Origin: an uncultured Pelagibacteraceae bacterium
Lineage (GTDB): Bacteria; Pseudomonadota; Alphaproteobacteria; Pelagibacterales; Pelagibacteraceae
Reading direction: 5' to 3'
NCBI GenBank assembly: GCA_902618975.1
Contig: CACNCN010000001.1
Coordinates: 62,001 to 126,000, forward strand
Length of the DNA: 64,000 nucleotides
Of this stretch, positions 13,793 to 30,311 are shown piece by piece. The notes beneath the pieces are model-generated. The model ran no database searches, was not told the DNA's origin, and worked only from the letters and a program-made list of their open reading frames with translations. The translations under genes and the position numbers were made by a program. Numbering within the stretch: position 1 is the stretch's first letter; each line of letters opens with the position of its first letter.

Positions 13793-15190
13793 ATGTCTAA
13801 AGTAGCAACTAGATTTGCTCCATCACCGACAGGAGCTCTACATATTGGGGGTGTTAGAACGGCATTATTTAATTGGCTATACTCCAAAAGTCAAAACGGT
13901 AAGTTTTATTTAAGAGTTGAAGATACTGATAAAGAACGATCTAAAGATGAATATAAAGACCAAATAATACAATCACTAAAATGGATTGGTATAAAATTTG
14001 ATGGAGAAGAATATATTCAATCAGAAAAAGTAGACGATCACATAAAAGTTGTAAATGAACTTCTTAAAAACGATAAAGCGTATAAATGCTATTGTTCAAG
14101 TGAAGAAATAGAAGAACAAAAAAAAAGATCGAGACAAAAAAAGATTCCTTATATTTACGATAGAAAATGGAGAGATAAAAAAGAATCTGATGCCCCAAAA
14201 GATATTAAACCTGTTATTAGATTTAAAAGTCAGATTAATGGAAAATCGATATTAAAAGATTTAGTTCAAGGTGATGTTGAAATTGACAATAATACAATTG
14301 AGGATTTTATTATCCTAAGAAATGATGGTACTCCAACATATAATTTGTCAGCAGCTGTAGATGACCACTTAATGAATATGACGCATATTATTAGAGGTGA
14401 CGATCACAAAATAAACACCTTCAAACAAATACAAATTTACCATGCAATGAAATGGAATTTACCTTCATTTGCTCATGTACCACTAATACACACCATCGAA
14501 GGAAAGAAACTATCAAAGCGAGATCATGCTTCTACATTGGATGATTACTCAAAAATAGGGATTATGCCAGATGCTCTAAGAAATTATCTTTTGAGATTAG
14601 GCTGGTCTTATAAGGATAAAGAAATTTTTACCTTAGATGAAAGTATTAAATTTTTTAATTTAGATGGTATAGGTAAATCTCCATCGAAACTCGATATGAG
14701 TAGAATATTATCAATAAATGAGCACTATATTAAGAATATTAATGAAAATGATTTATTCAATCAATTAATTGAATATTGTAAATTATATAAAAGTGAAATT
14801 CAATCAGATAAAAAAGATAAGATTAAAAAATCTCTTACTTTCTTAAAAAATAAAGCAAAAACTTTAGAGGATATATTTAATAATGGTCAATATATTATAA
14901 AAGATGAGGTTGATTTTAATAAGGATGATCTTAAATTAATTGATGATAAAGCAAGAAAAGTAATTTCTGACTTTAATAATCAATTTGAAAAAATAGATCA
15001 GCCTTCTCGAGAAATTTTAGAACCAATAATAAATGGGCTCATAAAATTCCACGACACAAATTTTAAGGGGGTTGGACAACCATTAAGGATTGCACTAACT
15101 GGCTCAAAGTTTGGACCTGGCATTTATGATATTATTTTATCTTTAGGGAAAGAAGAGGTTCAAAAAAGACTAAGAGCTAAGATAGCTTGA
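13793..15190 (+). CDS. gltX: Glutamyl-tRNA synthetase
   Basis: This class I aminoacyl-tRNA synthetase charges tRNA-Glu. The 465-residue protein has RFAPSPTGALHIGGVRTALFNWL (HIGH-type motif), EDTDKERS, the IRGDDHKINTFKQI segment and the KMSKS-type loop GKKLSKRDHAS. Length is usual. Whether it also mischarges tRNA-Gln cannot be told here; gatCAB is not in the window. Its 3' end overlaps the convergent lpxB by 21 bases, leaving no room for a classical terminator on either side. Confidence 0.96.
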   Translation: MSKVATRFAPSPTGALHIGGVRTALFNWLYSKSQNGKFYLRVEDTDKERSKDEYKDQIIQSLKWIGIKFDGEEYIQSEKVDDHIKVVNELLKNDKAYKCYCSSEEIEEQKKRSRQKKIPYIYDRKWRDKKESDAPKDIKPVIRFKSQINGKSILKDLVQGDVEIDNNTIEDFIILRNDGTPTYNLSAAVDDHLMNMTHIIRGDDHKINTFKQIQIYHAMKWNLPSFAHVPLIHTIEGKKLSKRDHASTLDDYSKIGIMPDALRNYLLRLGWSYKDKEIFTLDESIKFFNLDGIGKSPSKLDMSRILSINEHYIKNINENDLFNQLIEYCKLYKSEIQSDKKDKIKKSLTFLKNKAKTLEDIFNNGQYIIKDEVDFNKDDLKLIDDKARKVISDFNNQFEKIDQPSREILEPIINGLIKFHDTNFKGVGQPLRIALTGSKFGPGIYDIILSLGKEEVQKRLRAKIA

Positions 15191-16306
15191 AACTACCTCT
15201 GTGGCCTCTGATGATGAAGACGTTTTAGATCTAATCTCATTTAAAGTATGATTCACATCGTGAATTTGCTTTTTCATAAGATCAGGGTTTTTTAAAAAGT
15301 ATACCACAGATCTAAAAATTTCTTTTGAATTACATTCTTTTTGAATTAATTCTGGGATTATTTCTTTTTGATTTATAATATTAATAATATTTGCAAATTT
15401 TGTCTTAACTAAAGACTTAACAATAAAAAAATTAATAAAATTCATTTTATAAATTATGATAGACGGAACTTTCGCATTGCAGATTTCAAGAGAAACAGTT
15501 CCAGATTTTGCCACAGCAAATATTGAGTTTGATAAAATTTGAGATTTTATATTTTCTTCTGATATCACATCAACATTATCAAATTTTGTTTTTATAATCT
15601 CATCCTTTATCAAATCTTTATTTTGATCAGTCGCATGAAAAATAAAATTATATTCATTAAATTTTTTATTCATTAATTTAATAAAATCTATTAAGATTGG
15701 TAAAAGAATGTTTGTTTCAGATGTTCGACTTCCAGCAAATAAAGATATTATTTTTTTATTTTCATTAATTATATTTGATAAATTTGTTTTAACATTTTCT
15801 TTATTTTCGAGTAAGGGATGACCAACAAAAGTATTCTTGATACTTTCTTTATCAAAATATTTTTTTTCAAAATTAAATAATAATAAAACATGGTCTAAAA
15901 ACTTTTTAAAATTCTTAACCCTACCCTCTCTCCATACCCATACTTGTGGTGCTACATAATGTATTGTTTTAATATTAGGATTGATATTTTTTACTTTTTT
16001 AGCAACTCTTAGGGTAAAATCTGGACTATCTACACTAAATAGAATATCGGGATTAAATTCAATTATCTTGTTTACAGTTTCATTTATTTTGTTTCTGATT
16101 TTAAACAAATTTAGTATAACACTAGTAAAACCAATGTAAGTTATATCTTTAAGATCATAAATTGATTTGATTCCAAGTTTGTTTAAATGAGAGCCTCCAA
16201 CACTTAAATATTCTATATCGGAATGATTTTGTTGAAGTTTATCTATTACGGTTGATGCTAATTTGTCTCCTGAGGGTTCACCAGTTAATATAAAAATTTT
16301 TTTCAT
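15170..16306 (-). CDS. lpxB: Lipid-A-disaccharide synthase
   Basis: LpxB condenses UDP-2,3-diacylglucosamine with lipid X to the lipid A disaccharide on the inner face of the inner membrane. The 378-residue glycosyltransferase (GT19) starts IFILTGEPSGDKLAS and carries SVGGSHLNKLGI, SVDSPDFTLR, HYVAPQVWVWREGRV, LLFNFEKKYF, VGHPLLE, LFAGSRTSE and KSGTVSLEICN. It overlaps lpxI by 4 bases (ATGA) and is the last gene of the long minus-strand run. Its end overlaps gltX. Confidence 0.95.
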   Translation of the reverse strand: MKKIFILTGEPSGDKLASTVIDKLQQNHSDIEYLSVGGSHLNKLGIKSIYDLKDITYIGFTSVILNLFKIRNKINETVNKIIEFNPDILFSVDSPDFTLRVAKKVKNINPNIKTIHYVAPQVWVWREGRVKNFKKFLDHVLLLFNFEKKYFDKESIKNTFVGHPLLENKENVKTNLSNIINENKKIISLFAGSRTSETNILLPILIDFIKLMNKKFNEYNFIFHATDQNKDLIKDEIIKTKFDNVDVISEENIKSQILSNSIFAVAKSGTVSLEICNAKVPSIIIYKMNFINFFIVKSLVKTKFANIINIINQKEIIPELIQKECNSKEIFRSVVYFLKNPDLMKKQIHDVNHTLNEIRSKTSSSSEATEVVSSYLSS

Positions 16307-17097
16307 TTCACTGAAATAAACATCCTATTTTTATTAGCAAAACTAATACATTTATTTTTATCTAAAAATACATGTTGTTTACCTTTTACAACAATGCCTT
16401 TTAATCCAGCTGTCTTACTTTGTTTTAACGTTTTTAAACCAATGGTAGGTAAGTCAACTCTAAGATCCTGTTTTTTTTTTGGAAACTTAACTAAAACACC
16501 ATGGTTTCGAAATTTTTTACTTTTACTTTTTTCGAGTAATTTTTTTGTTCCACCTTTTCCCTCTATAGAAATTACTTTTTTATTTCTTACAACTACAGCT
16601 TGGCTGTAATTATACTCTTTTAAATTATTTAGCGTTTTGATGGCCTTTCTAATATCTAATTGATCCTTACTGTTGGGCTTAATACTTGAGTAGTTACCTT
16701 TTTTAAGAGTTAGCTCTGGATTAAATTTAAGTGAATTTTCAGTTTTTATATTATTTTGAGCTAATATTTTTATAATTTCTTTCAAAATTGCAGCATCACC
16801 AAGCTTCGATGCTTTAATAATTCTTGGAATATAGTAAATTCCTTTAAAATCTAACTTTAATTTAGAAAAGTTTGGCTTAATAACTTTCCCTGCAAATAAA
16901 ACTTTTTTACAGCTGTTTTCCTTAAGAATATTAATTATTTTTCCAAATTGACCCATAGAAACTAAATAAGATTTACTATCTTTTTTAAATTTCTTTGATT
17001 TGGATAAATCTATTATTAAATACTTTATTTTTCTTTTCTTAATTATTTTAAGTATTTTGTTCGGAAAATCTGTATCACCAAAAATTAATCCTATCAT
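16303..17097 (-). CDS. lpxI: UDP-2,3-diacylglucosamine pyrophosphatase LpxI
   Basis: LpxI splits UDP-2,3-diacylglucosamine to lipid X and UMP, the non-orthologous replacement of LpxH found in Alphaproteobacteria. The 264-residue protein fits the family (formerly DUF1009): an N-terminal GLIFGDTDFP region, MGQFGKIINILKENSCKKVLFAGKV, GDAAILKEI, and a C-terminal block with VVRNKKVISIEGKGGT, RVDLPTIGLKT and GIVVKGKQ. Its position between lpxA and lpxB is the standard alphaproteobacterial arrangement and strongly supports the call. Confidence 0.92.
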   Translation of the reverse strand: MIGLIFGDTDFPNKILKIIKKRKIKYLIIDLSKSKKFKKDSKSYLVSMGQFGKIINILKENSCKKVLFAGKVIKPNFSKLKLDFKGIYYIPRIIKASKLGDAAILKEIIKILAQNNIKTENSLKFNPELTLKKGNYSSIKPNSKDQLDIRKAIKTLNNLKEYNYSQAVVVRNKKVISIEGKGGTKKLLEKSKSKKFRNHGVLVKFPKKKQDLRVDLPTIGLKTLKQSKTAGLKGIVVKGKQHVFLDKNKCISFANKNRMFISVK

Positions 17098-17098
17098 T

Positions 17099-17875
17099 TT
17101 ATGAAAATGGGGTGCAAATAGACCTTTTTTTATCTTTTGTAATGAATTCTATTACTTCTTTAACTAATGGATTTTGATGAAATGAACCATTTAATTTACT
17201 TATATTTTCATTGATATTTTTGGTAGCGAAAATCTCCTTATAAGCCTCACTCAAGCCTAAAATGTGCTTATTTTCAAATTTAGCTCTTCTCAACCCTATT
17301 AAATTCAATCCTTGTAATGAATTTCTATTCCCTGTTGATAATCCATATGGAATAACATCGTGCAATACTCCAGTCATACCTCCGATCATTGCCATTTTAC
17401 CAATTCTTGTAAACTGTTGAACAGCAGAATTTCCACCAATTACCACTCCGTCTTCAATAATAGCGTGTCCACCTAAAGGAACATTATTTGCTATGATTAC
17501 ATTATTACCTACATGACAATCATGTGCTATATGAGATGAGATCATAAACAAACAATTATTTCCAATTATAGTTTTTCCTCCACCACCAATTGTCCCAGGA
17601 TTTATTGTGACATATTCTCTTATTTTATTGTTGTCTCCAATAATTAAACATGTTTCTTCACCATTATATTTTAAATCTTGAGGATCATTAATTGAAACAA
17701 ATGGATAAATTTTATTTCCTTTTCCAATTTTTGTATTACCAATTATACTTACATGAGATTGAATTATTGTATTCTCTCCAATTTCAACATTAGGACCAAT
17801 AAAAGAATATGGACCGATCTTTACGCTAGAATGAATTCTTGCGTCTTTATCAATTATAGAAGTTTTATCTATCAC
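17099..17875 (-). CDS. lpxA: UDP-N-acetylglucosamine acyltransferase
   Basis: LpxA adds the first 3-hydroxyacyl chain to UDP-GlcNAc. The 258-residue protein is a left-handed beta-helix built of hexapeptide repeats ([IV]GxxxxI), with the catalytic His in SSHIAHDCHVGNN and the conserved VIPYGLSTGNRNSLQGLNLIGLRR stretch before the C-terminal helices. It starts with GTG; the GTGA overlaps the lpxD stop by 4 bases. Acyl chain preference cannot be read with confidence. Confidence 0.96.
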   Translation of the reverse strand: MIDKTSIIDKDARIHSSVKIGPYSFIGPNVEIGENTIIQSHVSIIGNTKIGKGNKIYPFVSINDPQDLKYNGEETCLIIGDNNKIREYVTINPGTIGGGGKTIIGNNCLFMISSHIAHDCHVGNNVIIANNVPLGGHAIIEDGVVIGGNSAVQQFTRIGKMAMIGGMTGVLHDVIPYGLSTGNRNSLQGLNLIGLRRAKFENKHILGLSEAYKEIFATKNINENISKLNGSFHQNPLVKEVIEFITKDKKRSICTPFS

Positions 17876-18849
17876 TTATTTTCTCTAATAAAGTTTTTTA
17901 AATCTTTAGCTGGATAGCCCATCACTTTAGAATTATCTGGAATATTTTTTATAACTCCACTTCCGCCGCCTATTTGGACATTATTACCAACTTTAAGGTG
18001 GCCCGAAATTCCTGCTTGACCACCAATCATAACATTATTACCTAAAACAGAACTTCCAGCAAATCCAACTTGTCCTGCTATGATACAGTTTTCACCAATT
18101 TTAACGTTATGAGCTACGTGTATTTGATTATCTAAAAATGTATTTTTTCCTATAATAGTATTTGAAATTGAACCTCTATCTATTGTAGATCCACAGCCTA
18201 TTTCTACATTATCTTCAATTATAACAATACCTATTTGAGGGTATCTTATATTAGAGTCTTTATTAGGAAAAAATCCAAAACCTTTTTTTCCAATCACACA
18301 ATTATCTAAAATATGAACATTATTCTTAATTAATGAATTTCTAATAATAACATTAGACCCTATAGAACAGTTATTTCCTATGATTACATTTTTTTCGATT
18401 ATTGAGTTATGACCTATTGAACAATTTAAACCAATTTTTACACCCTCGCCAATTAGTACATTTTTTCCAAATTTAACTTCATTATTTAATTTTATTTCAT
18501 TTATATCTTTAACGGAGCTATCAAGTTTATCAGTTACAGAGTCTGGATAAAAAATTTTGGTAATTTGGGCTGTATGTAATAAAACTTTATTTGAAATTAT
18601 AGCCTTGCAAGTGTTTGGTAAAATCGATGTAAAATTTTCTGGTGTTATACAATAAGATGCTTTTGTAATTTTTGCTAATTCAATATATTTTTTTGAATGA
18701 AAAAAAGTTATTTCGTTTTTTTTAGATGTGCTTAAATCTTTAATATCGTTTATTTTGTCATCGGGGAAATTATAATTATTTAAATTAATTGATTTAAGTA
18801 AATAATTAATATTATGAGGTCCAGTATTTTTAAAAAATGGATTGATCAT
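17872..18849 (-). CDS. lpxD: UDP-3-O-(3-hydroxyacyl)glucosamine N-acyltransferase
   Basis: LpxD adds the second 3-hydroxyacyl chain in lipid A synthesis. The 325-residue protein has the N-terminal uridine-binding domain (residues 1-100, with EITFFHSKKY), a long hexapeptide-repeat beta-helix, the CGSTIDRGS segment and the catalytic His region QIHVAHNVKIGENCIIAGQ, followed by a short C-terminal helix. The order fabZ-lpxD-lpxA differs from E. coli, where lpxD precedes fabZ. A 54-base gap to fabZ is the only non-trivial gap in this 13-gene cluster. Confidence 0.95.
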   Translation of the reverse strand: MINPFFKNTGPHNINYLLKSINLNNYNFPDDKINDIKDLSTSKKNEITFFHSKKYIELAKITKASYCITPENFTSILPNTCKAIISNKVLLHTAQITKIFYPDSVTDKLDSSVKDINEIKLNNEVKFGKNVLIGEGVKIGLNCSIGHNSIIEKNVIIGNNCSIGSNVIIRNSLIKNNVHILDNCVIGKKGFGFFPNKDSNIRYPQIGIVIIEDNVEIGCGSTIDRGSISNTIIGKNTFLDNQIHVAHNVKIGENCIIAGQVGFAGSSVLGNNVMIGGQAGISGHLKVGNNVQIGGGSGVIKNIPDNSKVMGYPAKDLKNFIRENK

Positions 18850-18903
18850 TTATAGGTTTAATATCAAAACCTACATCAAAAAGTTATCAAGATTTATTGC
18901 TAA

Positions 18904-19353
18904 TTATTTCCTATCTACTATTGTAGCAGACCATTGCGCGTCTGCCATTTTTTTTCCCTGCACAAATGCCTCGCCCTTATATTTCCATACTTTACCATGT
19001 GATCTTATTGCCTCGATATTTAACTCTAGCTTGCAATCAGGTATAACTGGGTTTCTAAATCTTGCTTTCTCAACACTCATCAAAAATACTAGTTTATTTT
19101 CATATTCAGCTTTATCAATACCAGCAGCTGTTAGAGCAGCCGCAGCTTGACCGAACGCCTCGACAATTAAAACTCCTGGCATTACAGGTTGACCCGGAAA
19201 ATGACCTTGTACAAAAAAACTATCTTTTTTAACATTTACTATAGCGGTTGCAGAAAACAATTTTTTAATATTAACCAGTTCATCAATTAATAACATTGGT
19301 TCTCTGTGAGGTAGTAAATTAATTATATCTAGTTTAGTAAGCTTTTCAGTCAT
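18904..19353 (-). CDS. fabZ: 3-hydroxyacyl-[acyl-carrier-protein] dehydratase FabZ
   Basis: FabZ dehydrates 3-hydroxyacyl-ACP in fatty-acid elongation and competes with LpxA/LpxD for that substrate, which explains its place among lpx genes. The 149-residue hot-dog protein shows INLLPHREPMLLIDE, the catalytic GHFPGQPVMPGVLIVEAFGQ with His and Glu, and KARFRNPV. Its ATG overlaps the skp stop by one base. Confidence 0.96.
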   Translation of the reverse strand: MTEKLTKLDIINLLPHREPMLLIDELVNIKKLFSATAIVNVKKDSFFVQGHFPGQPVMPGVLIVEAFGQAAAALTAAGIDKAEYENKLVFLMSVEKARFRNPVIPDCKLELNIEAIRSHGKVWKYKGEAFVQGKKMADAQWSATIVDRK

Positions 19354-19883
19354 TAATTTTGAATATTAATTTTTTTTACATTATTATCTAAAATTTTTAT
19401 AATATCATTAGTTATATTTAAATCATTAATACCTATAACTATATTTTTTTTATCAATTATTAAAGAAACCGAATTTTCTTTTGAATAATCAGACAAAATT
19501 GGCTTAAGTTTTTCTAACAAAACTTTAGTATATTTTAATTTCAATGTATCTAATTCTTTGCGATTATTATTTAATTGCTCTTGATATTTCTTAATTTTAT
19601 TATTTAGTTCAGTAATTTTATTATTTAATTCATCTTGACTTAATAAATTTTTTTTTGCACTTATATCTTCATCATCTTTTTTTATAGAAACCTCTAACTC
19701 TTTAATTTTTTTTCTATAAATTTCGTCTTTTTTTTTTAGTTCATCATTTATATATTTCCCTGCTTCTGAATTATTTAAAACCTTATTCATATCTAAAAAA
19801 ACTATTTTGTCACTTGAGAAAGATTTTAAAGGAGAAGTGAATACCGATATGAATATAAAAAAAAAAATAAATTTTTTATTCAT
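19353..19883 (-). CDS. skp: OmpH/Skp family periplasmic chaperone
   Basis: The 176-residue protein has a signal peptide (KKFIFFFIFISVFTSPLKSFS), then IVFLDMNKVLNNSEAGK, a long charged coiled coil from about residue 40 to 115 and a C-terminal IIDKKNIVIG strand. This is the Skp (OmpH) layout: a trimeric jellyfish chaperone that carries unfolded outer-membrane proteins to BamA. It directly follows bamA with a one-base overlap, the usual neighbourhood. Sequence identity in this family is low, so the call rests on layout plus position. Confidence 0.88.
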   Translation of the reverse strand: MNKKFIFFFIFISVFTSPLKSFSSDKIVFLDMNKVLNNSEAGKYINDELKKKDEIYRKKIKELEVSIKKDDEDISAKKNLLSQDELNNKITELNNKIKKYQEQLNNNRKELDTLKLKYTKVLLEKLKPILSDYSKENSVSLIIDKKNIVIGINDLNITNDIIKILDNNVKKINIQN

Positions 19884-22108
19884 TAAAAAGTAGTACCAAT
19901 TCTAAATCTAAAAGTTTCAGTTTCATCATTTTCATGTTTAGTCAAAGGCAATGCAAAAGAAAAACTTAATGGTCCTATGGGAGTAAACCAATCTACAGCA
20001 AGTCCTGATGATGATCTAATTTTATTACTATCTAATGAATCGTTATAGTCGACACCAAATATATTTGCTGAGTCTAGAAATATACTAAAATCCACATTCT
20101 GAAGATCACCCAAAAGTTTAGGTATTGTTGCTGCAATATTTAATGCTGTACCAAAGTTACCGCCTATATAATCACTTCCATCTTTAGGACCTACTTTTCC
20201 AGCCACAAAACCTCTTAATTTCCTTGATGGTATAAAAATTCTTTTACTTACTCTTACATCATCATCAAGGCTATTTACACTTTTTGCAAAAAATATGAGA
20301 GATAAGACGGAGTCTTCACCAAATTTATTATATTTAGAAAATTCATAAGAATTAACAATACTTGTATCATCAGCGTAAATCGGTAATTCTTGAAAGAAAG
20401 AACTTTTATATCCATCCGTTGGCTGAAAATTTTGATTTAATTTATTTAGTGTAAGACCATAAGAAAAATTAGTATCAAAATAATTTCCCTCTTGTTTTTG
20501 TTTTGCGGCTGACGCAGTATTTGAAGTCTCTAAATTTTCAATAAATGTTGAAATTTTAGGTGAAAAAAAAATATCTTTAAATTGTTCGTAAGATGTTCCC
20601 ACAGAAAAACCAATTGTCTCTGTTTCATATCCAAATTTATTCATCAAATCAATTTGAGAATTTTCAACAGAGGTTATTAATGATTTTTCGCTATTTTTAT
20701 AATTAGGATCGGTATAACTAAACAAGCCAGTTATAGAATTATCGCTAAAAGCAACATTAGCTTTTAACTTTGTTCCTTGACCAACATAATTATTTTCAGC
20801 GATTGAAAATGATACGGTTGTACCGCTTGTACCAGTACCTGCTCCAGCAGATACCTCTCCAGTAGGTTTCTCGTCAACAATTATATCAATTTTTTTTTGC
20901 TGAGGTGTTGAACCATCATAAACTTTAGACTCTACAGTGGAAAAAATATTTTTTGACTTTATATTATTAATTGATTTTTTAAATAATATTTCATTATATG
21001 GGTCACCTTCATCGGTTATAATTGAATTTCTAATGACATTTTCATTTGTCAAATAATTACCCAAAATATTAATTTGCTCTACATATTTTTTTTCACTTTC
21101 TTTAATATTAATTATTAAATCAATATATTTCTCATTTACTTCTTCATTATATGTTGCATTAATAAATTCATATTGTTTGTTTAAAGCAATTTCGTCTATT
21201 TGATCGAGAATTTTTTTTATTCTGTTTAAAGAATACGTTTTGTTTTTTAAATTTATTAAAACATCATTTATATCTTCAAAATTTTTTTTATCGAAATTAT
21301 TGGGTAAATTTAACACCACGTTGTTAAAAATATATTTTTCACCAGCATCAATATTAAAAACTAATTCGAATTTATTCTGATTAATAACTAAAGCTGAGGT
21401 TGAATTTACTTTAACATTGTAATATCCATTATTTTTATAATAATTTGTTAGTAATTTTTCATCCAATTGAATTCTTTTTTCGTCTAAAAATTTTTTATTT
21501 GAAATAAATTTCCAAAATTTACTTTCTTCTGAGACTATTATTCTTTTTAATTTTCTATCTTTAACTTTCTTATCACCTATAAATTTGATTTTTTCAATAT
21601 ATGCCTTATCACCTAGGTCTATATTGTAATTTAAGCTAACTGTATTATTTTCATTTTTTTTTATTGATGTTTCTATAATTGAAAAATAGTAACCATTTTT
21701 TTTTAATATAGTTGCAAGTATACTCTCATCTTTTTTAACTTTACTTTTAACAAAAGAATTTTTCTCTTTTAATTGAATTTTATTTCTTAATGTTTTTAAT
21801 ATTGTTTTATTTTTTACACCAGAAAATTCAATTTCTTCTATAATCGGATTTTCAACTATATTTACAATTAAAGTTTCTTTATCTAAAGAAATAACTACAT
21901 TTTCAAAAAAGTCTGTTTGGTAGAGTTTTTTAAGAATTATATTTAGTTCAGATTTATTATAATTTTTATTTTTTTTTATTTCACCAAATAAAATAATAGT
22001 TTCGTCTGAGATTCTATTATTTCCATTTATTTTAATATTTTTTACTATATTAGCATTTGTAGAAGTTATAATAAAAAATAAAACTAATATTTTAAAAAAA
22101 AAATTCAT
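19883..22108 (-). CDS. bamA: Outer membrane protein assembly factor BamA
   Basis: BamA inserts beta-barrel proteins in the outer membrane. The 741-residue protein has a signal peptide, POTRA repeats to about residue 420 (NIKINGNNRISDETI, IEEIEFSGVKNK, IEKIKFIGDKK and later repeats), and a C-terminal barrel including the conserved loop-6 motif RKLRGF and a final FRFRIGTTF strand ending in Phe. The track start at 22111 is TTG; ATG 22108 overlaps the dxr stop (ATGA). No site-2 protease gene (rseP) lies between dxr and bamA, unlike most relatives. Confidence 0.95.
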   Translation of the reverse strand: MNFFFKILVLFFIITSTNANIVKNIKINGNNRISDETIILFGEIKKNKNYNKSELNIILKKLYQTDFFENVVISLDKETLIVNIVENPIIEEIEFSGVKNKTILKTLRNKIQLKEKNSFVKSKVKKDESILATILKKNGYYFSIIETSIKKNENNTVSLNYNIDLGDKAYIEKIKFIGDKKVKDRKLKRIIVSEESKFWKFISNKKFLDEKRIQLDEKLLTNYYKNNGYYNVKVNSTSALVINQNKFELVFNIDAGEKYIFNNVVLNLPNNFDKKNFEDINDVLINLKNKTYSLNRIKKILDQIDEIALNKQYEFINATYNEEVNEKYIDLIINIKESEKKYVEQINILGNYLTNENVIRNSIITDEGDPYNEILFKKSINNIKSKNIFSTVESKVYDGSTPQQKKIDIIVDEKPTGEVSAGAGTGTSGTTVSFSIAENNYVGQGTKLKANVAFSDNSITGLFSYTDPNYKNSEKSLITSVENSQIDLMNKFGYETETIGFSVGTSYEQFKDIFFSPKISTFIENLETSNTASAAKQKQEGNYFDTNFSYGLTLNKLNQNFQPTDGYKSSFFQELPIYADDTSIVNSYEFSKYNKFGEDSVLSLIFFAKSVNSLDDDVRVSKRIFIPSRKLRGFVAGKVGPKDGSDYIGGNFGTALNIAATIPKLLGDLQNVDFSIFLDSANIFGVDYNDSLDSNKIRSSSGLAVDWFTPIGPLSFSFALPLTKHENDETETFRFRIGTTF

Positions 22109-23286
22109 CAATTACGATCTTTAATACATAGATCGAGAGTTTTCAATCTTACATATTTATTTAGATTTACTATCTCATTGATATTCTGGGGTATTTTTCT
22201 TTTAAGTTGTCTAAATTCTTTAAAATTTAAAATTTTATTAATTAAAACATTAATATCTTTATAACTAATATTGTTATTTAAAAATTGACTTACTAATTCA
22301 TCATTTGCTGAAACTAATACTGTATCGTAAAGGGAGTTATTATCGTCAAATTTATTCAAGATATTTAATAGTTTGAATTTTTTAAAATCTGGCTTGGATA
22401 AGTTCAAATTATTTAATTTTTTAATGTCAACTCTTTTAGAACTTAGAATTTTTTGATTTTTATCATAAAGTGTATTAAAGATTGGAATCTTCATGTTGGT
22501 TTCATGTACTAATAATTTAGAAGTTCCATTATTAAATTTTATTATTGAATGCAAATATGCTGTTGGATGTATTAAAATCTCAAGTTGTTTTTTTTTAAGA
22601 TTAAATATTTTTTGAGCTTCTAGAATCTCAAAAACTTTGTTCATCATTGTTGAGGAGTCAATAGATATTTTTTTTCCCATTTTCCATATTGGATGGTTTA
22701 TAGCATTAGAGGGTTTTACTTTTTTAAATTGGCTTATTGGTAAATTTAAAAAAGGACCACCAGAAGCTGTAATGTAAATTTTTTCTACATTACTAACATT
22801 AAACCCGCCAAGACTTTGCCAAATAGAAAAATGTTCAGAGTCTACAGGTAAAAATTCTGATTTATTTTTTATTAGTTCTTTTTTAATTAAATCCCATGCA
22901 CATATTATTGACTCTTTATTTGCTATAGCAATCTTTTTAGTAAATTTTATAATTTTGATTGTTGGCTCTAGTCCATCAAAACCAGATATTGCTGACATTG
23001 CATAATCTATTTTATTATTTTTGAAAATCTTGCCAAAACTATTATATCCATTAAAAATTTTTACTTTATTTTTTTTTAATTTTTTTTTAACTAAGTCATA
23101 TGAGTTTTTATTCTTAACAATTATATTTTTGACCTTAAATTTTTTGACTTGTGATACTATATTATTTACATTTGAATTTGTTGTTAGTAATTCAATTTCA
23201 AATTTTTTAATATCTTTATTAATTATATTTAAAGTATTTTTTCCTATAGAGCCTGTTGAGCCTAAAATTGCTATTTTTTTTTTCAT
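22108..23286 (-). CDS. dxr: 1-deoxy-D-xylulose 5-phosphate reductoisomerase
   Basis: Dxr makes MEP, the committed step of the non-mevalonate isoprenoid pathway, matching ispF at the left edge. The 392-residue protein has the NADPH-binding ILGSTGSIGKNTL, IANKESIICAW, PVDSEHFSIWQ, TASGGPF, NHPIWKMGKKISIDSSTMMNK and IHPTAYLHS. It overlaps cdsA by 4 bases upstream and bamA by one base at the chosen bamA start. Length is normal. Confidence 0.96.
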   Translation of the reverse strand: MKKKIAILGSTGSIGKNTLNIINKDIKKFEIELLTTNSNVNNIVSQVKKFKVKNIIVKNKNSYDLVKKKLKKNKVKIFNGYNSFGKIFKNNKIDYAMSAISGFDGLEPTIKIIKFTKKIAIANKESIICAWDLIKKELIKNKSEFLPVDSEHFSIWQSLGGFNVSNVEKIYITASGGPFLNLPISQFKKVKPSNAINHPIWKMGKKISIDSSTMMNKVFEILEAQKIFNLKKKQLEILIHPTAYLHSIIKFNNGTSKLLVHETNMKIPIFNTLYDKNQKILSSKRVDIKKLNNLNLSKPDFKKFKLLNILNKFDDNNSLYDTVLVSANDELVSQFLNNNISYKDINVLINKILNFKEFRQLKRKIPQNINEIVNLNKYVRLKTLDLCIKDRN

Positions 23287-23936
23287 AGCCAGTATATTAT
23301 ATTATAAATAAATAAGCCAAAAGGTACTGCAAATATTATTCCATCTACTCTATCAAGCAATCCACCATGTCCTGGCAATATTGAACCTGTATCTTTTACA
23401 TTTGATCGTCTTTTAAAATAAGAAATAAAAAGGTCACCTAATTGACAAATTACTGATATTAAAATGAATACAAAACATATTATTAAATAATTAAATTCAA
23501 TATTTAATAAATATTTATAATAGTAGAAGTAATAAATGATGGGAAACAAACAAAATACAAATGATCCAATTGATCCAGAAATTGTTTTATTAGGACTGAT
23601 TTTTGTTAGTTTTTTTCCACCTATTAATTTTCCACATACATATCCACCAATGTCAGAAAATATACATACTGATAAGATTATGATTACATCTTTCCTATTT
23701 GAAATATAAAGAAAATATGCAAATAAAATTAAATAAAAAACAAATGATAAATTAATTATTAGTTTTTTTAAAAAATTTTCTTTCCATATATTATCAATTA
23801 AAGTTTTAAACTCAAAAAACGAAATAAGTGAAATTACGGTTAAAAGCAATAACCAAACTAAATTATTAAAAAAGCCAATTATTAATAACAAAATTAATAC
23901 AATTGATGTTAAAACTCTTTTGTAGAAATTATTCAT
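23283..23936 (-). CDS. cdsA: Phosphatidate cytidylyltransferase
   Basis: CdsA makes CDP-diacylglycerol from phosphatidate and CTP. The 217-residue, multi-span membrane protein ends with the family signature KISPNKTISGSIGS followed later by DTGSILPGHGGLLDRVDG. It is at the short end of the family (E. coli is 285), mostly by having fewer N-terminal membrane helices, as is common in Alphaproteobacteria. It sits between uppS and dxr, with a one-base overlap with uppS and four with dxr. Confidence 0.94.
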   Translation of the reverse strand: MNNFYKRVLTSIVLILLLIIGFFNNLVWLLLLTVISLISFFEFKTLIDNIWKENFLKKLIINLSFVFYLILFAYFLYISNRKDVIIILSVCIFSDIGGYVCGKLIGGKKLTKISPNKTISGSIGSFVFCLFPIIYYFYYYKYLLNIEFNYLIICFVFILISVICQLGDLFISYFKRRSNVKDTGSILPGHGGLLDRVDGIIFAVPFGLFIYNIIYWL

Positions 23937-24610
23937 TATATATTGCCGAAATTTCGCTTTATTTTTTTAAATTTAAGTAAAATTTTTTCAAAATCCTTTT
24001 CATTAAAATCTGGCCACAATTTTTTTTCAAAAAAAATTTCGGAATATGCAATTTGCCATAATAAAAAGTTACTTAATCGATTGGTATCTCCAGTTCTAAT
24101 TAATAAATCAGGATCCGGAATACCATTTGTATAAAGATTTTTACTAATATTTCTCTCATTTATATTGGTTTTTTTTTTTATTATTTTTTTTAACGCATAC
24201 ACGAGCTCGTTTTTAGATCCATAATTTAATGCAAGATTTATTTGTAATTTATTATTTTTTTTTGTTAAATCCTCAGAATCTTTTAAAAGTTTATTTATTT
24301 TTTTTGAAAAATTTTTAACACCTATAACTTTTAATTTAATGTTTTGTTTATTAAGTTCAAATATTTTGTCACCCAAAAAACTTTCGAGCAATTTAAACAA
24401 AAAATTTACTTCTTTTTTAGGCCTCTTCCAATTTTCGGTTGAGAAAACAAAAAGTGTCAAAAAATTAATTTTATTTTTGATCGTAGATTTGATTATTTTT
24501 TCTACTGTTTTTAATCCTTCTTGGTGACCTAAATTTCTTGATTTTTTATTTTTTAAACCCCATCTACCATTACCATCCATAATTATGGCTACATGATTAA
24601 TTGGATTCAT
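23936..24610 (-). CDS. uppS: Undecaprenyl diphosphate synthase (cis-prenyltransferase)
   Basis: UppS makes the C55 lipid carrier for peptidoglycan and polysaccharide. The 224-residue protein shows HVAIIMDGNGRW (catalytic Asp), GHQEGLKTVEKII, FVFSTENWKRP, ALNYGSKNEL, DPDLLIRTGDTNRLSNFLLWQ and YSEIFF. It overlaps frr by 4 bases upstream and cdsA by one base downstream. Confidence 0.96.
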   Translation of the reverse strand: MNPINHVAIIMDGNGRWGLKNKKSRNLGHQEGLKTVEKIIKSTIKNKINFLTLFVFSTENWKRPKKEVNFLFKLLESFLGDKIFELNKQNIKLKVIGVKNFSKKINKLLKDSEDLTKKNNKLQINLALNYGSKNELVYALKKIIKKKTNINERNISKNLYTNGIPDPDLLIRTGDTNRLSNFLLWQIAYSEIFFEKKLWPDFNEKDFEKILLKFKKIKRNFGNI

Positions 24611-25158
24611 ATCTGCATTATTTCTTTTTCTTTTGTATTTACTTTTTCTTCTATTTTTTTAATATTTTCATCTGTCAAATTTTGTATATTTTTTTCCTCT
24701 TTTTTTTCAATATCTTCACTTATTGATTTATTTTTTAGTAATTTTTTAAGTTCATCATTTCCTTCTCTTCTAATATTTCTTATTGAAATCTTACATTGCT
24801 CACCCATATTTTTTATCAGTTTGGCTATTTCATTCCTTCTCTCTTCGCTTAAATCAGGAATGGGTAACCTTATTAATTGTCCATCAATCTGAGGGTTTAG
24901 TCCAAGATCTGATTTCTTGATAGCAGTATCAATAAGACTTACATTATTTACGTCCCAAACTTGGATGTTAATAACTCTTGGTTCAGGGGTAGTTATAGTA
25001 CCAACTTGATTTATAGGCATTTTCTGTCCGTATACATCAACATAAATTAAATCCAGCATATTTGAATTTGCCCTACCAGTACTCAAAGTTGACAGGTCTT
25101 TTATAAATTTTTCGAAAGTTTTACTCATTTTATTTTTATAAATACTTAAGCTAAACAT
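24607..25158 (-). CDS. frr: Ribosome recycling factor
   Basis: Frr splits post-termination ribosomes together with EF-G. The protein shows LSTGRANSNMLD, VDVYGQKMPINQVGTI, DLGLNPQIDGQLIRLPIPDLSEERR and a C-terminal alpha-helical block ending KEKEIMQI. The track start at 25161 is GTG; ATG 25158 overlaps the tsf stop (TGATG) and gives 183 residues, near the usual 185. An internal ATG at 25128 would remove the first helix, so I reject it. Confidence 0.95.
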   Translation of the reverse strand: MFSLSIYKNKMSKTFEKFIKDLSTLSTGRANSNMLDLIYVDVYGQKMPINQVGTITTPEPRVINIQVWDVNNVSLIDTAIKKSDLGLNPQIDGQLIRLPIPDLSEERRNEIAKLIKNMGEQCKISIRNIRREGNDELKKLLKNKSISEDIEKKEEKNIQNLTDENIKKIEEKVNTKEKEIMQI

Positions 25159-26012
25159 CACTCACCTATTTTAATTCTATGAAATGCACTTATCTCTAAA
25201 TTTGATAATTTAAGGCTCTGAATTATTTCATTAACTTTTTTATCTGGATCCATCACCCAAGATTGTGTCATTAAACAATTGTCTTGAATAAATTTATTTA
25301 ATTTACCTTTTGAAATTTTTTCAACAATTTCTTTTGGTTTACCATTATTTTTTAGTTCTTCAGCTATTAATTCTTTTTCTTTAATTAATATATTTTGATC
25401 AATTAATTTCTCATTTATAGCAATAGGGTTTGAAGCAGCTATATGCATAGATAGTTGTTTTCCAAAATTTAAAAAACTTTCATCATTTTCATCATCGTAA
25501 TTAATTGACGAAATTACAGCTAATTTTGCAAGCTTATCTTTTACAACTGAATGTAGGTAAGTAAAAATCTTACCTTTTTCACACACAATTGTTTTAGATC
25601 TACCTAAGGTTATTTTTTCTCCAATTTTAGATATTAAATCTACAAGTGTGTCTTCCACTGATTTACTATTTTTCATTATAGTTTTTTTTAATTTTTCAGG
25701 ATCTGATGAAACAGAATTGTTTATTTCACTTATTTCTTTAACGAAAGAAATAAAATCATCATTTTTTGCAACAAAGTCAGTTTCACAATTTACCTCTATT
25801 AATGATGATTTTTTATTATCTCCAAAAACAGCCACGACACCTTCGTTAGCCTCCCGAGTCATTTTTTTGGATGCCTTTGAAATTCCTTTAACTCTTAGAA
25901 TCTCAATAGCCTTTTCAATATCACTGTTGGCTTCCTTTAAAGCATTATTGCAGTCTTTAAATCCAGCACCAGTTAATTTTCTAAGTTCTTTGACTTTATC
26001 TATGTCACTCAT
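25158..26012 (-). CDS. tsf: Elongation factor Ts
   Basis: EF-Ts is the guanine-nucleotide exchange factor for EF-Tu. The 284-residue protein has the N-terminal UBA-like domain ([23 protein letters not shown]), the hallmark [14 protein letters not shown], two dimerisation-type subdomains and [10 protein letters not shown] near the C-terminus. It starts directly after the rpsB stop with no gap and overlaps frr, so rpsB, tsf and frr are surely one transcript. Confidence 0.96.
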
Positions 26013-26777
26013 TTAATTCAAAGATTTATCTTTAGATATTTTGCTTTGTAAATCTTTTTCTTTGTTATTTTTTTCTATAGAAACATTAGATAAGTTTGAT
26101 TTTGCGTTTTGAATTGTTTCTTTTATAAGTGAACAATAAAGATCTATCGATCTTCTCGCATCATCGTTTCCTGGTATAGGATAGTCTATACCATCGGGAT
26201 TTGAATTAGTATCAAGTATAGCAATAATTGGAATTCCGAGTTTTATAGACTCTTTTATTGCTAAAGACTCATAATTAGTATCTATTACAAAAACTAAATC
26301 AGGAATAGTTTTCATATCTGAAATTCCCCCTAAAGATCTTTCCAATTTATCTCTTTGCGTACTCATTTTTAAAAGTTCTTTTTTAGTAAAACCTCGATTT
26401 TCTGAGGATAAATCTGTATTAATTTTTTGTAATTTTTTAATTGAATTAGATATTGTTCCCCAATTTGTTAACATGCCGCCAAGCCACCTATAATTAACGT
26501 AATATTGATTAGTACTTTTAGCTAAATCTGCTATTGCATCAGAAGCTTGTTTCTTAGTAGAAATAAATAATATCTTTCCATTGTTTGAAATAGTTTCATA
26601 GACTTTTTCTAAAGCTATCTTTGTCAATTCTAAAGTCTGAGTTAAATCAATGATGTGTATTGAGTCTCGTTTTCCAAATATATATTTTTTCATTTTTGGG
26701 TTCCATCTAAGTGTTTTGTGACCTAGGTGAACTCCTGCCTCTAATAATGCTTGTATTGTTAAATTAGGTATTTTCAT
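26013..26777 (-). CDS. rpsB: 30S ribosomal protein S2
   Basis: S2 binds the 30S subunit body late in assembly. The product (254 residues) carries [60 protein letters not shown] and [23 protein letters not shown]. The track start at 26837 adds 20 residues unlike the family; ATG 26777 (MKIPNLTIQ) is the true start because the upstream part is a structured RNA leader, described separately. S2 itself could be the ligand of that leader. Confidence 0.96.
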
Positions 26778-26780
26778 ATT

Positions 26781-26848
26781 ATTCCCGGTTAAACCACCAC
26801 AATAATTTCCATTTAAGGACCGGAGGTTATTAACCACTTATTGTGTGA
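26781..26848 (-). ncRNA. Structured rpsB leader (candidate S2 autoregulatory element)
   Basis: On the minus strand the leader has an 8-bp stem CACAATAA / TTATTGTG (26838-26845 with 26798-26805) enclosing 32 bases. Within that loop CCGGT (26819-26823) can pair with ACCGG (26785-26789) just before the start codon, making a pseudoknot. GGTTAA (26830-26835) can instead pair with TTAACC (26787-26792), and the two pairings exclude each other. The region is clearly more GC-rich than the surrounding spacer. A cis-regulatory RNA ahead of rpsB has been reported in Pelagibacter; that this is the same element is inference. Confidence 0.68.
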
Positions 26849-26900
26849 GTATTTTTTTATGGATATTTACAAATTTATTTTAAACAAAACAAGTATTTTT

Positions 26901-29900
26901 TTAGTGAATTATTGATTGTATTTGTTGTTTTTTTAACGAATTTACAATTTTTCTATCTATATATCGTCTATTTTGTAAGTTTAAAGTGATATATTTTTGT
27001 TTAAATTTATATTTAATTATTACTTCTGTGTTACCAAGTGTATCAAGATGCTTAGATAAATCCTCGATTTTTGATAAATGGTCTAACATAAATTCTATTT
27101 TATTTATTGGTTTGTTATAAATTTCTTTTATAGATGAAATATTTAAAATATTGATTTTTTTAGTTTTTTTGTCGTCGTCAGTTATTATTTTATTTAAATT
27201 AATAATTACAGAATTTCCTTCAATTAATATTTTTCTATTTTTTTCAAGTATTTCAGAGAATATAAAAATTTCAAAAACTCTTGATAGATCTGAAAATTTT
27301 ACGATAGCATAAGATGTCCCTTTTCCAGTTTTTTTTTCCTGAATTTTTAAAATAGTAGCAGCAATATTTGAGTTTTTTAATTCATTATTATTAACAAAGT
27401 TTTCGTAATTAATTATATTAAAATCATTATATAATTCCTTGTATTGATTTAATGGATGGTTAGATATAAAAAAACCGACTGCTTCAAATTCCTTTTTTAG
27501 TTTTTCTTCAAAAATCCATTCATCATTTTTATCAACAATTTGATCATTTGTTTGAGAATTATCACCAAACAAATCTATTTGATTGGCCTCTTTATTCTCA
27601 AATACACTTTTTGACTTAAGAATTAATTTAGGTATAGAATTAAATAACGCAGATCTATTTTCATAAATTTCATCAAATGCTCCCGATTTAACGAGACCCT
27701 CAAGCTGAAGTTTGTTTATATCTTTTGGGTTAACTCTATTAATAAAATTCTCAATTGATAAAAATTTTCCATTTTTAATTCTTTCTTCAACAATGTTATT
27801 TATAGCCTCATACCCAACATTTTTGATTGAACCAAGGGCATAATAAAAATTTTTTTGATCTGATCTAAAATCTGCAAAACAACTATTTATATTTGGTCTA
27901 ATGACTTTTATCTTTAATCTATTTATTTCTTCGTAAAATTCTGCGAGTTTTTTTTGGTTTGATATATCCATTGTCATAGATGCTGCGAAAAATTCATTTG
28001 GATAATGTGTTTTTAAAAATGCTGTTTGGTAAGCTATTATTGCATACGCTGCCGCATGACTTTTATTGAAACCATATTCTGCAAAAGGTTCAATTTTTAA
28101 AAAGATACCTGCTGCTACGTCTTTACTTATACCATTTTTAACAGCTCCTTCTATAAACCTCATCTTTTGTTTCTCTACCTCTGATCTTTTTTTTTTTCCA
28201 ATAGCTTTTCTTAATATATCAGCTTCTGCAGCTGAAAAACCTGACAGTTTTTGTGCAATTTGCATAACTTGTTCTTGATATATTATTACACCGTAGGTCG
28301 GTTTTAAAATTTCCTCTAACAATGGATGAATATAATCTGGTTCTCGATTATTATTTTTGCATTCATTATAAATAGGGATATTGCTCATTGGACCAGGTCT
28401 ATATAAAGCAACTAAAGCAATGATATCCTCTAACTCAGTAGGTTTCATATTTATTAACGCATCTTTCATTCCTGAGCTTTCTAGTTGAAATAACCCGACA
28501 GTATTACCTGATGACAAGGTATTAAATACTTTGGAGTCTTCATAACTTATTTTATTAATATCAAATTCTTTATTTGAATTATTAATTAATTTTTGCGTTT
28601 TATTTATTACCGTCAAAGTTTTTAAACCTAAAAAATCAAATTTAATTAAACCAGCATTTTCAGCAGAGTACATATCAAATTGCGTTGAAGGCAATAAAAG
28701 ATCTGTTGAGTGATCTTTGTATAATGGAACTGTATCTGTTAATTTTCTGTCAGCTATAACTACACCAGCTGCATGTGTTGCAACATTTCGATTTAATCCC
28801 TCTAACTTAAGTGATAAGTCTATCAAACGTTTAATTCTTTTATCTGTTTTTATTAAATTTTGTAATCTTGGCTCTGAATTAATGCACTCTTGTAAATTTT
28901 GGGGTCTCGAGGGATCAAAAGGTATCATTTTAGCTATATTATCAATGAACCCATACGATAGACCCAAAACTCTTCCAACATCTCTTATAACCATTCTTGC
29001 TTTTAACTTTCCAAAAGTGATAATATGAGCAACACTATCTTTGTATTTTTTAGATAGATAATCAAAAACTAAATCTCTTTTTTCCTCACAAAAATCAATA
29101 TCAAAATCAGGTAAAGAAATCCTAGAAGGATTTAAAAATCTCTCAAAAATTAGATTAAACTTTATTGGGTCTACATCAGTAATAGATAAACACCATGCAA
29201 CTAACGACCCGGCACCCGAACCTCTTCCTGGACCTACAGGTATATCATTACCTTTCGCCCAATTTATATAGTCAGCGACTATTAAAAAATAACTTGCATA
29301 CTTCATTTTTTTAATAATTTCTAACTCATGGTTTAGTCTAAGTTTATATATAGAGTGGTACTTATCATAATTATTTTTAAGATATGGATTTTCTTGAAAT
29401 TTTTGATCCAAACCATTCAGAGAGTATTTTGTAAGCTCTGTTTCAGTATCATCATTATTTGTTTTTTTAATATTCGGAAGCATAGGTTTTGATGGAGTGG
29501 GTCTGTAGCTACATCTAAATGGTAAATTAACATTATTTTCAATAGCTTCGGGTAGGTCTCTAAATAATTCAAACATTTCATGATCAGATTTAAAATAATG
29601 GTTATTAGAATAAGAAAGTCTATTTTTATCATTCAAGTAAGTTTTGTTACCTATACATATTAAAGTTTCATGGGCTTCATGCATAGATTTATCCAAATAA
29701 AAAACTTCGTGTGATGCAATTATAGGTATTTTTAGGTCATAAGAGGTTTTTAGATTGAACCTTTCAAATTGTTTTTCATTTAGGTCGTCGTGTCTTTGTA
29801 TTTCTAGATAAAAGGAAAAATTAAAATTTTTTTTTAATTTATTATAAATTTCTTCAATTTCTTTAAATCTATTTTTTAAAAATAATTTGCCAATTAAACC

Positions 29901-30311
29901 ATTAATGTTATTGGACATGACAATTATACCCTCGGGTTTTAGTAGAAGATCGTCTAGAAAACACAAAGGTTCATACGTTTCACTTTTTTCTAAATATGAT
30001 TTAGAGGATAATTCAATAATTCTTTTATAACCTATTTCACTAGACGCAATTAATGTTAATTTACCAGTAGTATCACCATATTTAAAAGCAATTTGTGTAC
30101 CGATAATAGGTTGAGTACCTTGTTTTGAAATAGCTTCAGAAAACTCCAAGGCTCCACAAAGATTAAACGAGTCAGAAATTCCTAGAGCTTTAACTTTATT
30201 TGCTTTACAAAAATCTTTAAGATTATCAATTTTTATTGCTCCTTCACATATGGAATATTGAGTATGTATTTTGAAATGGGTAAATGAATTATTTTTTTCT
30301 AATTCTTGCAT
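26901..30311 (-). CDS. dnaE: DNA polymerase III alpha subunit
   Basis: DnaE is the replicative polymerase. The 1136-residue protein has an N-terminal PHP domain (FTHFKIHTQYSICEGAI), the palm region VGPGRGSGAGSLVAWCLSITDVDP and PDFDIDFCEEKRD with catalytic Asp residues, the fingers with ATHAAGVVIAD, helix-hairpin-helix motifs around residue 850, and a C-terminal OB domain. The first PHP metal ligand, His in the HxHxxYS pattern of relatives, is Lys here (HFKIH), so the PHP site is probably inactive. Its start overlaps lolD by 23 bases. Confidence 0.96.
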   Translation of the reverse strand: MQELEKNNSFTHFKIHTQYSICEGAIKIDNLKDFCKANKVKALGISDSFNLCGALEFSEAISKQGTQPIIGTQIAFKYGDTTGKLTLIASSEIGYKRIIELSSKSYLEKSETYEPLCFLDDLLLKPEGIIVMSNNINGLIGKLFLKNRFKEIEEIYNKLKKNFNFSFYLEIQRHDDLNEKQFERFNLKTSYDLKIPIIASHEVFYLDKSMHEAHETLICIGNKTYLNDKNRLSYSNNHYFKSDHEMFELFRDLPEAIENNVNLPFRCSYRPTPSKPMLPNIKKTNNDDTETELTKYSLNGLDQKFQENPYLKNNYDKYHSIYKLRLNHELEIIKKMKYASYFLIVADYINWAKGNDIPVGPGRGSGAGSLVAWCLSITDVDPIKFNLIFERFLNPSRISLPDFDIDFCEEKRDLVFDYLSKKYKDSVAHIITFGKLKARMVIRDVGRVLGLSYGFIDNIAKMIPFDPSRPQNLQECINSEPRLQNLIKTDKRIKRLIDLSLKLEGLNRNVATHAAGVVIADRKLTDTVPLYKDHSTDLLLPSTQFDMYSAENAGLIKFDFLGLKTLTVINKTQKLINNSNKEFDINKISYEDSKVFNTLSSGNTVGLFQLESSGMKDALINMKPTELEDIIALVALYRPGPMSNIPIYNECKNNNREPDYIHPLLEEILKPTYGVIIYQEQVMQIAQKLSGFSAAEADILRKAIGKKKRSEVEKQKMRFIEGAVKNGISKDVAAGIFLKIEPFAEYGFNKSHAAAYAIIAYQTAFLKTHYPNEFFAASMTMDISNQKKLAEFYEEINRLKIKVIRPNINSCFADFRSDQKNFYYALGSIKNVGYEAINNIVEERIKNGKFLSIENFINRVNPKDINKLQLEGLVKSGAFDEIYENRSALFNSIPKLILKSKSVFENKEANQIDLFGDNSQTNDQIVDKNDEWIFEEKLKKEFEAVGFFISNHPLNQYKELYNDFNIINYENFVNNNELKNSNIAATILKIQEKKTGKGTSYAIVKFSDLSRVFEIFIFSEILEKNRKILIEGNSVIINLNKIITDDDKKTKKINILNISSIKEIYNKPINKIEFMLDHLSKIEDLSKHLDTLGNTEVIIKYKFKQKYITLNLQNRRYIDRKIVNSLKKQQIQSIIH

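Follow-up and report, generated by a model that had tools for sequence, protein, structure and literature searches.

Background

A cis-regulatory RNA located before the gene for ribosomal protein S2, the rpsB motif (RF01815), was defined by Meyer et al. (2009) in Pelagibacter ubique, in the gap between dnaE and rpsB (PMC2704228). It comprises a stem P1, short P2 and P3 (with two P3 pairs stated for P. ubique) and a pseudoknot of the P2-P3 junction with an extension 3' of P1, and the same authors extended the motif, pseudoknot included, to Gammaproteobacteria (PMC2704228). In E. coli, S2 represses rpsB-tsf through the 5' UTR, S1 is needed for effective repression, and the operator does not include the ribosome binding site (PMC10931766); this autoregulation by S2 (with S1) was described by Aseev (2008, 2009) and is reviewed in PMC10931766.

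The window analysed here is a stretch of 64,000 nucleotides from an uncultured Pelagibacteraceae bacterium, and all coordinates are window positions. The original prediction proposed that rpsB has a structured, pseudoknotted leader and pointed out that RNAs of this kind were known before the S2 gene in Pelagibacter, which matches the rpsB motif, RF01815 (PMC2704228). The window element is an ordinary, well-preserved and slightly divergent rpsB leader RNA (RF01815), and the motif, including its pseudoknot, has been known since 2009 from the same group of marine bacteria. The pseudoknot is thus not new, since P1, P2, P3 and the pseudoknot had already been described by Meyer et al. (PMC2704228).

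Leader sets and covariance models

The element is carried by 79 SAR11 relatives, whose leader sequences, together with that of the window, made up a set of 80 leaders (63 distinct). An alignment of 26 SAR11 leaders (A1) was compared with 500 shuffled versions and with slid controls, in which relatedness is kept. A further alphaproteobacterial set contained 90 leaders (L082-L171), of which 84 were parsed by script. RF01815 was surveyed in 190 genomes spread over the Alphaproteobacteria, and matches were taken at E <= 0.01. The gathering cut-off of RF01815 is 40 bits, a listing rule of Rfam rather than an anatomical feature. A SAR11 covariance model was built from 26 SAR11 leaders, with the window sequence left out.

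Assignment to RF01815

The leader was recovered by both covariance models for S2 leaders, a scan that the original prediction had proposed. Using cmscan, comparison of positions 26400-27100 with Rfam returned RF01815 (rpsB) over its full length at 26849-26769 on the minus strand (34.5 bits, E 5.3e-5), and the SAR11 model matched the window at 26849-26775 with 85.7 bits (E 6.5e-22), its runner-up place in the window reaching 9.7 bits. A match to RAGATH-17 (24.5 bits, E 1, cut-off 102) was considered as due to chance. Because 34.5 bits falls under the gathering cut-off of 40 bits, the rpsB leader is missing from the window-wide Rfam scan at gathering score, which listed tRNAs only. A previously unannotated, sub-threshold sequence is hereby placed in a known regulatory RNA family.

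RF01815 was present once per genome in 122 of the 190 alphaproteobacterial genomes, scoring above the cut-off in 48 only; the other 74 matches fell below 40 bits, for example that of a complete Pelagibacteraceae genome (38.1 bits). An rpsB match was found just downstream in all 90 fetched loci, above as well as below the cut-off. As 74 of 122 genomes fall below 40 bits and yet every fetched match precedes rpsB, this cut-off looks too strict for Alphaproteobacteria, most of whose members of the family it passes over.

Structure of the leader

The leader lies on the minus strand at 26849-26778 (...TACTCACACAATAAGTGGTTAATAACCTCCGGTCCTTAAATGGAAATTATTGTGGTGGTTTAACCGGGAATAATATG), directly upstream of the rpsB start codon ATG (26775-26777), and all elements below are given on that strand. 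The 5' strand of P1 (26838-26849) consists of CTC, a bulged A and CACAATAA (26838-26845), and its 3' strand (26794-26805) of TTATTGTG (26798-26805) followed by GTGG; CACAATAA and TTATTGTG form an 8-bp stem. Both strands were located by cmscan with RF01815 and by the SAR11 model, and P1 carries compensatory changes. As in the rpsB motif, three stems meet in a junction that is closed by P1, P2 and P3 being variable, and pairing joins the P2-P3 junction to an extension 3' of P1. P2 is the hairpin GGTT-AAT-AACC (26825-26835), for whose stem divergent SAR11 leaders have GGGC/GCCC or AGGA/TCCT, and P3 is the short hairpin CC-TTAAAT-GG (26809-26818), closed by CC/GG with two pairs as in P. ubique. 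The pseudoknot strands are CCGGT in the P2-P3 junction (26819-26823) and ACCGG (26785-26789), 7 nt before the rpsB start codon.

The 8-bp stem, CCGGT/ACCGG and a further pairing, GGTTAA with TTAACC, which has ACC in common with ACCGG, can all be drawn at the places given in the original prediction, on the minus strand. The small P3 had been overlooked there, as had the fact that GGTTAATAACC is by itself the local hairpin P2. The leader was also correctly described as GC-richer than other spacers (37.5% versus a median of 22.7% for other window spacers, a tRNA-bearing spacer reaching 40%).

The conserved P2-P3 junction ACCUCCGGU (26819-26828) includes CCUCC, the core of the 16S anti-Shine-Dalgarno sequence. 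This identity may be a coincidence, because the junction reads CUACCGGU in several divergent SAR11 leaders.

Conservation and covariation

The stem and the pseudoknot exceed chance expectation. Among the 63 distinct SAR11 leaders, double changes were found at 4 of the 7 inner pairs of P1 (C-G/T-A/A-T; G-C/A-T; T-A/C-G; T-A/A-T) and at 3 of the 4 pairs of P2, and the pseudoknot was paired in all 63, with one double change (CCTGT/ACAGG in L056). In A1, 97.5% of cells were paired under the full structure with pseudoknot, compared with at most 53% when it was slid. Double-changed cells numbered 26 versus 7.0 in shuffles, and the covariation score was 0.154 versus 0.069, a value reached by 0 of 500 shuffles, which leave relatedness in place uncorrected.

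In all 84 parsed leaders of the further alphaproteobacterial set, the pseudoknot strand was found 4 nt after GGNGG, with its partner upstream. Double changes occurred in L100, L104 and L171 (CTGGT/ACCAG) and in L162 (TCGGT/ACCGA), hitting two pairs other than that changed in SAR11 L056; L169, outside the script-parsed leaders, also reads CTGGT/ACCAG. The RF01815 model used for finding these loci knows CUCCGGU and AACCGG as sequence and not as pairs, so these changes are independent evidence. Taken over both sets of leaders, such compensatory changes, which are an addition to the known rpsB motif, argue that the pseudoknot is real and evolutionarily maintained, and the structured leader of the original prediction, with its pseudoknot next to the start codon, stands. 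Covariation had been named as a test for three helices: P1 and the pseudoknot, and P2 too, carry compensatory changes, and the alternative helix GGTTAA/TTAACC is without them. A lack of such changes, named at the outset as the outcome that would count against the prediction, was thus found for the alternative helix and not for P1, P2 or the pseudoknot.

Transcript start and gene neighbourhood

A promoter-like sequence, TTGTTT-N17-TAAATA, is located upstream of the leader (26864-26892, minus strand) and follows a pattern conserved among SAR11. Of 75 distinct SAR11 upstream regions, 59 carry the pattern TTGn3-N13..16-WnGTAn3, compared with 2.4 (maximum 6) in dinucleotide shuffles; it ends 11-23 nt before P1. 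A generic sigma-70 scan listed no promoter at the expected place upstream of the leader. The conserved pattern suggests a transcript that begins a short way upstream of P1 and includes the whole element; a start downstream of the stem, which would have spoken against the predicted leader, is made less likely by this promoter-like sequence upstream of P1.

The leader is flanked by dnaE (26901-30311, minus strand, family match), which is also its upstream neighbour in 76 SAR11 loci, and by rpsB (26013-26777, minus strand; NCBIfam TIGR01011, 313 bits). By coordinates and families, tsf, frr, uppS, cdsA, dxr and bamA follow rpsB gaplessly (19883-26012, minus strand), the tightly packed order after the leader being rpsB-tsf-frr-uppS-cdsA-dxr-bamA-ompH-fabZ-lpxD-lpxA-lpxI-lpxB. 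At 15170-22111 the run goes on nearly gapless through bamA, an ompH-like and a fabZ-like gene, lpxD, lpxA, lpxI and lpxB. Since the run from rpsB to lpxB has almost no gaps, polar effects of the leader on the downstream lipid A genes are possible.

LpxI is coded in this run where LpxH, used by many bacteria at its place, might be expected. In bacteria pyrH often sits between tsf and frr; it is absent there in the window (24607-26012), and in the SAR11 loci for which the gap was determined the two genes are adjacent, 15-32 nt apart in 40 of the 75 that have an frr match.

Distance to the start codon

In SAR11 leaders the distance from the end of the pseudoknot strand to the AUG is 4-10 nt, and 8 nt in 68 of 80, compared with a median gap of 16 nt in the 84 leaders of other Alphaproteobacteria. 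A Shine-Dalgarno core beyond the pseudoknot strand was found in 2 of 80 SAR11 leaders versus 72 of 84 in the other Alphaproteobacteria. That SAR11 leaders have the pseudoknot at a distance of about 8 nt to the start codon, without a Shine-Dalgarno sequence beyond it, is a modest addition to the known motif.

The missing Shine-Dalgarno sequence is weakened as an rpsB-specific trait, given that only 7 of 53 window ORFs are preceded by a Shine-Dalgarno core: as such cores are uncommon throughout the window, their lack before SAR11 rpsB is partly a general habit of the genome. An altered SAR11 anti-Shine-Dalgarno sequence was suspected because GGATCACCTCCTT was not found, and is ruled out, since the 16S gene ends in GGATTACCTCCTTT, with a normal CCTCC. 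Compared with the expected GGATCACCTCCTT, this 16S rRNA 3' end (L172-L174) shows a C-to-T change beside the anti-Shine-Dalgarno sequence.

Function and rival explanations

The explanation retained as a whole, an rpsB leader RNA whose fold with pseudoknot mediates feedback of S2 on rpsB-tsf-frr translation, is considered highly probable. By analogy with E. coli, the SAR11 leader most likely senses free S2 and so places translation of rpsB-tsf-frr under autoregulation by S2; the S2 control of the original prediction agrees with published work. As sequence comparison shows, P1 closes on a three-way junction from which the short P2 and P3 extend, and the pseudoknot is formed by CCGGU of the P2-P3 junction and ACCGG, which is located between P1 and the rpsB start. 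On the model of rpsB-tsf in E. coli, this fold is expected to be bound and stabilised by free S2 (possibly together with S1), and the S2-bound leader would block 30S loading on rpsB, reducing rpsB-tsf-frr translation. In SAR11 the block is probably direct occlusion, because the pseudoknot strand lies so close (4-10 nt) to the AUG. As the E. coli operator leaves out the ribosome binding site (PMC10931766), we infer this for SAR11 specifically, and it is not a result, because the rarity of Shine-Dalgarno sequences is partly a genome-wide habit. That the SAR11 motif might be a compact operator containing the ribosome landing site, which S2 would occlude directly, in contrast to repression in E. 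coli, is a tentative reading, for which we would not claim even chances. If it holds, one of the most abundant bacteria of the ocean would have a simple and testable version of S2 feedback.

Two other explanations were weighed against feedback of S2 through the pseudoknotted fold. A structural leader that promotes or protects translation (through mRNA stability or S1 docking), without feedback by S2, would draw on the fact that conservation of a fold does not by itself prove feedback; we consider it unlikely, as the element stands directly before rpsB in all 90 loci of the class and S2 feedback acts on E. coli rpsB-tsf via the 5' UTR (PMC10931766). The model of the original prediction, in which S2 toggles the leader from the pseudoknot form to a rod and back, the rod having GGTTAA (26830-26835, minus strand) paired to TTAACC (26787-26792, minus strand), has in its favour that the window does contain the 6-bp helix, as part of the nested minimum-energy fold (-12.4 kcal/mol), and that its 4-bp core GGTT/AACC can form in 64 of 80 SAR11 leaders. 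All six pairs, however, are present in 1 of 80 SAR11 leaders, that of the window, and in none of the 84 leaders from other Alphaproteobacteria, with 0.76 expected by shuffle, and the mutually exclusive pairing did not hold up as a conserved switch. In A1 the helix was paired in 73.7% of cells versus 76.8% when shuffled, with 494 of 500 shuffles pairing it at least equally and double changes not in excess; on the 63 distinct SAR11 leaders the values were 68.8% versus 72.6%. A perfect helix of at least 6 bp between the loop and the 3' extension arises in 19% of shuffles.

The toggling model is also opposed by P2, the local hairpin to which GGTT belongs: because P2 becomes GGGC/GCCC in divergent SAR11 leaders while TTAACCGG stays unchanged, P2 is kept and the alternative helix is broken. 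In the window, the pseudoknot-free fold plus the pseudoknot duplex amounts to -16.4 versus -12.4 kcal/mol for the alternative (the loop penalty being omitted, these values are indicative only), and the means over leaders are -20.2 for the pseudoknot-compatible fold plus duplex versus -14.0 kcal/mol (pseudoknot penalty omitted, likewise indicative only). Single-strand folding was rejected as support: folded as a nested structure, the window leader has no more than ordinary stability (z 0.51), and the minimum-energy form holds the alternative helix and not P1, under a program that cannot score a pseudoknot and is uninformative for it. Conservation or covariation of both competing helices among relatives, by which a two-state switch would be recognised, was not found. 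The comparison of leaders thus indicates that the GGTTAA/TTAACC pairing is incidental, and it is rejected as a conserved feature; a bistable switch is regarded as very improbable.

Comparison with known systems

The window leader resembles the rpsB motif RF01815 (PMC2704228) in its gene, its location in the dnaE-rpsB gap, P1, short P2 and P3, the pseudoknot and the conserved CUCCGGU and AACCGG. It differs from that motif by its score of 34.5 bits (below 40), by an A/T-rich P1 and by a T-T mismatch at the central position of the outer CTC/GTG segment of P1. Other Pelagibacter leader motifs, the rpsL motif and the SAM-V riboswitch, were discovered by the same approach (PMC2704228), but they belong to other genes and have other folds and, for SAM-V, another ligand. 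With the E. coli rpsB-tsf leader the window leader shares a structured rpsB 5' UTR; the E. coli operator excludes the ribosome binding site, whereas in the window the pseudoknot strand lies 7 nt from the AUG.
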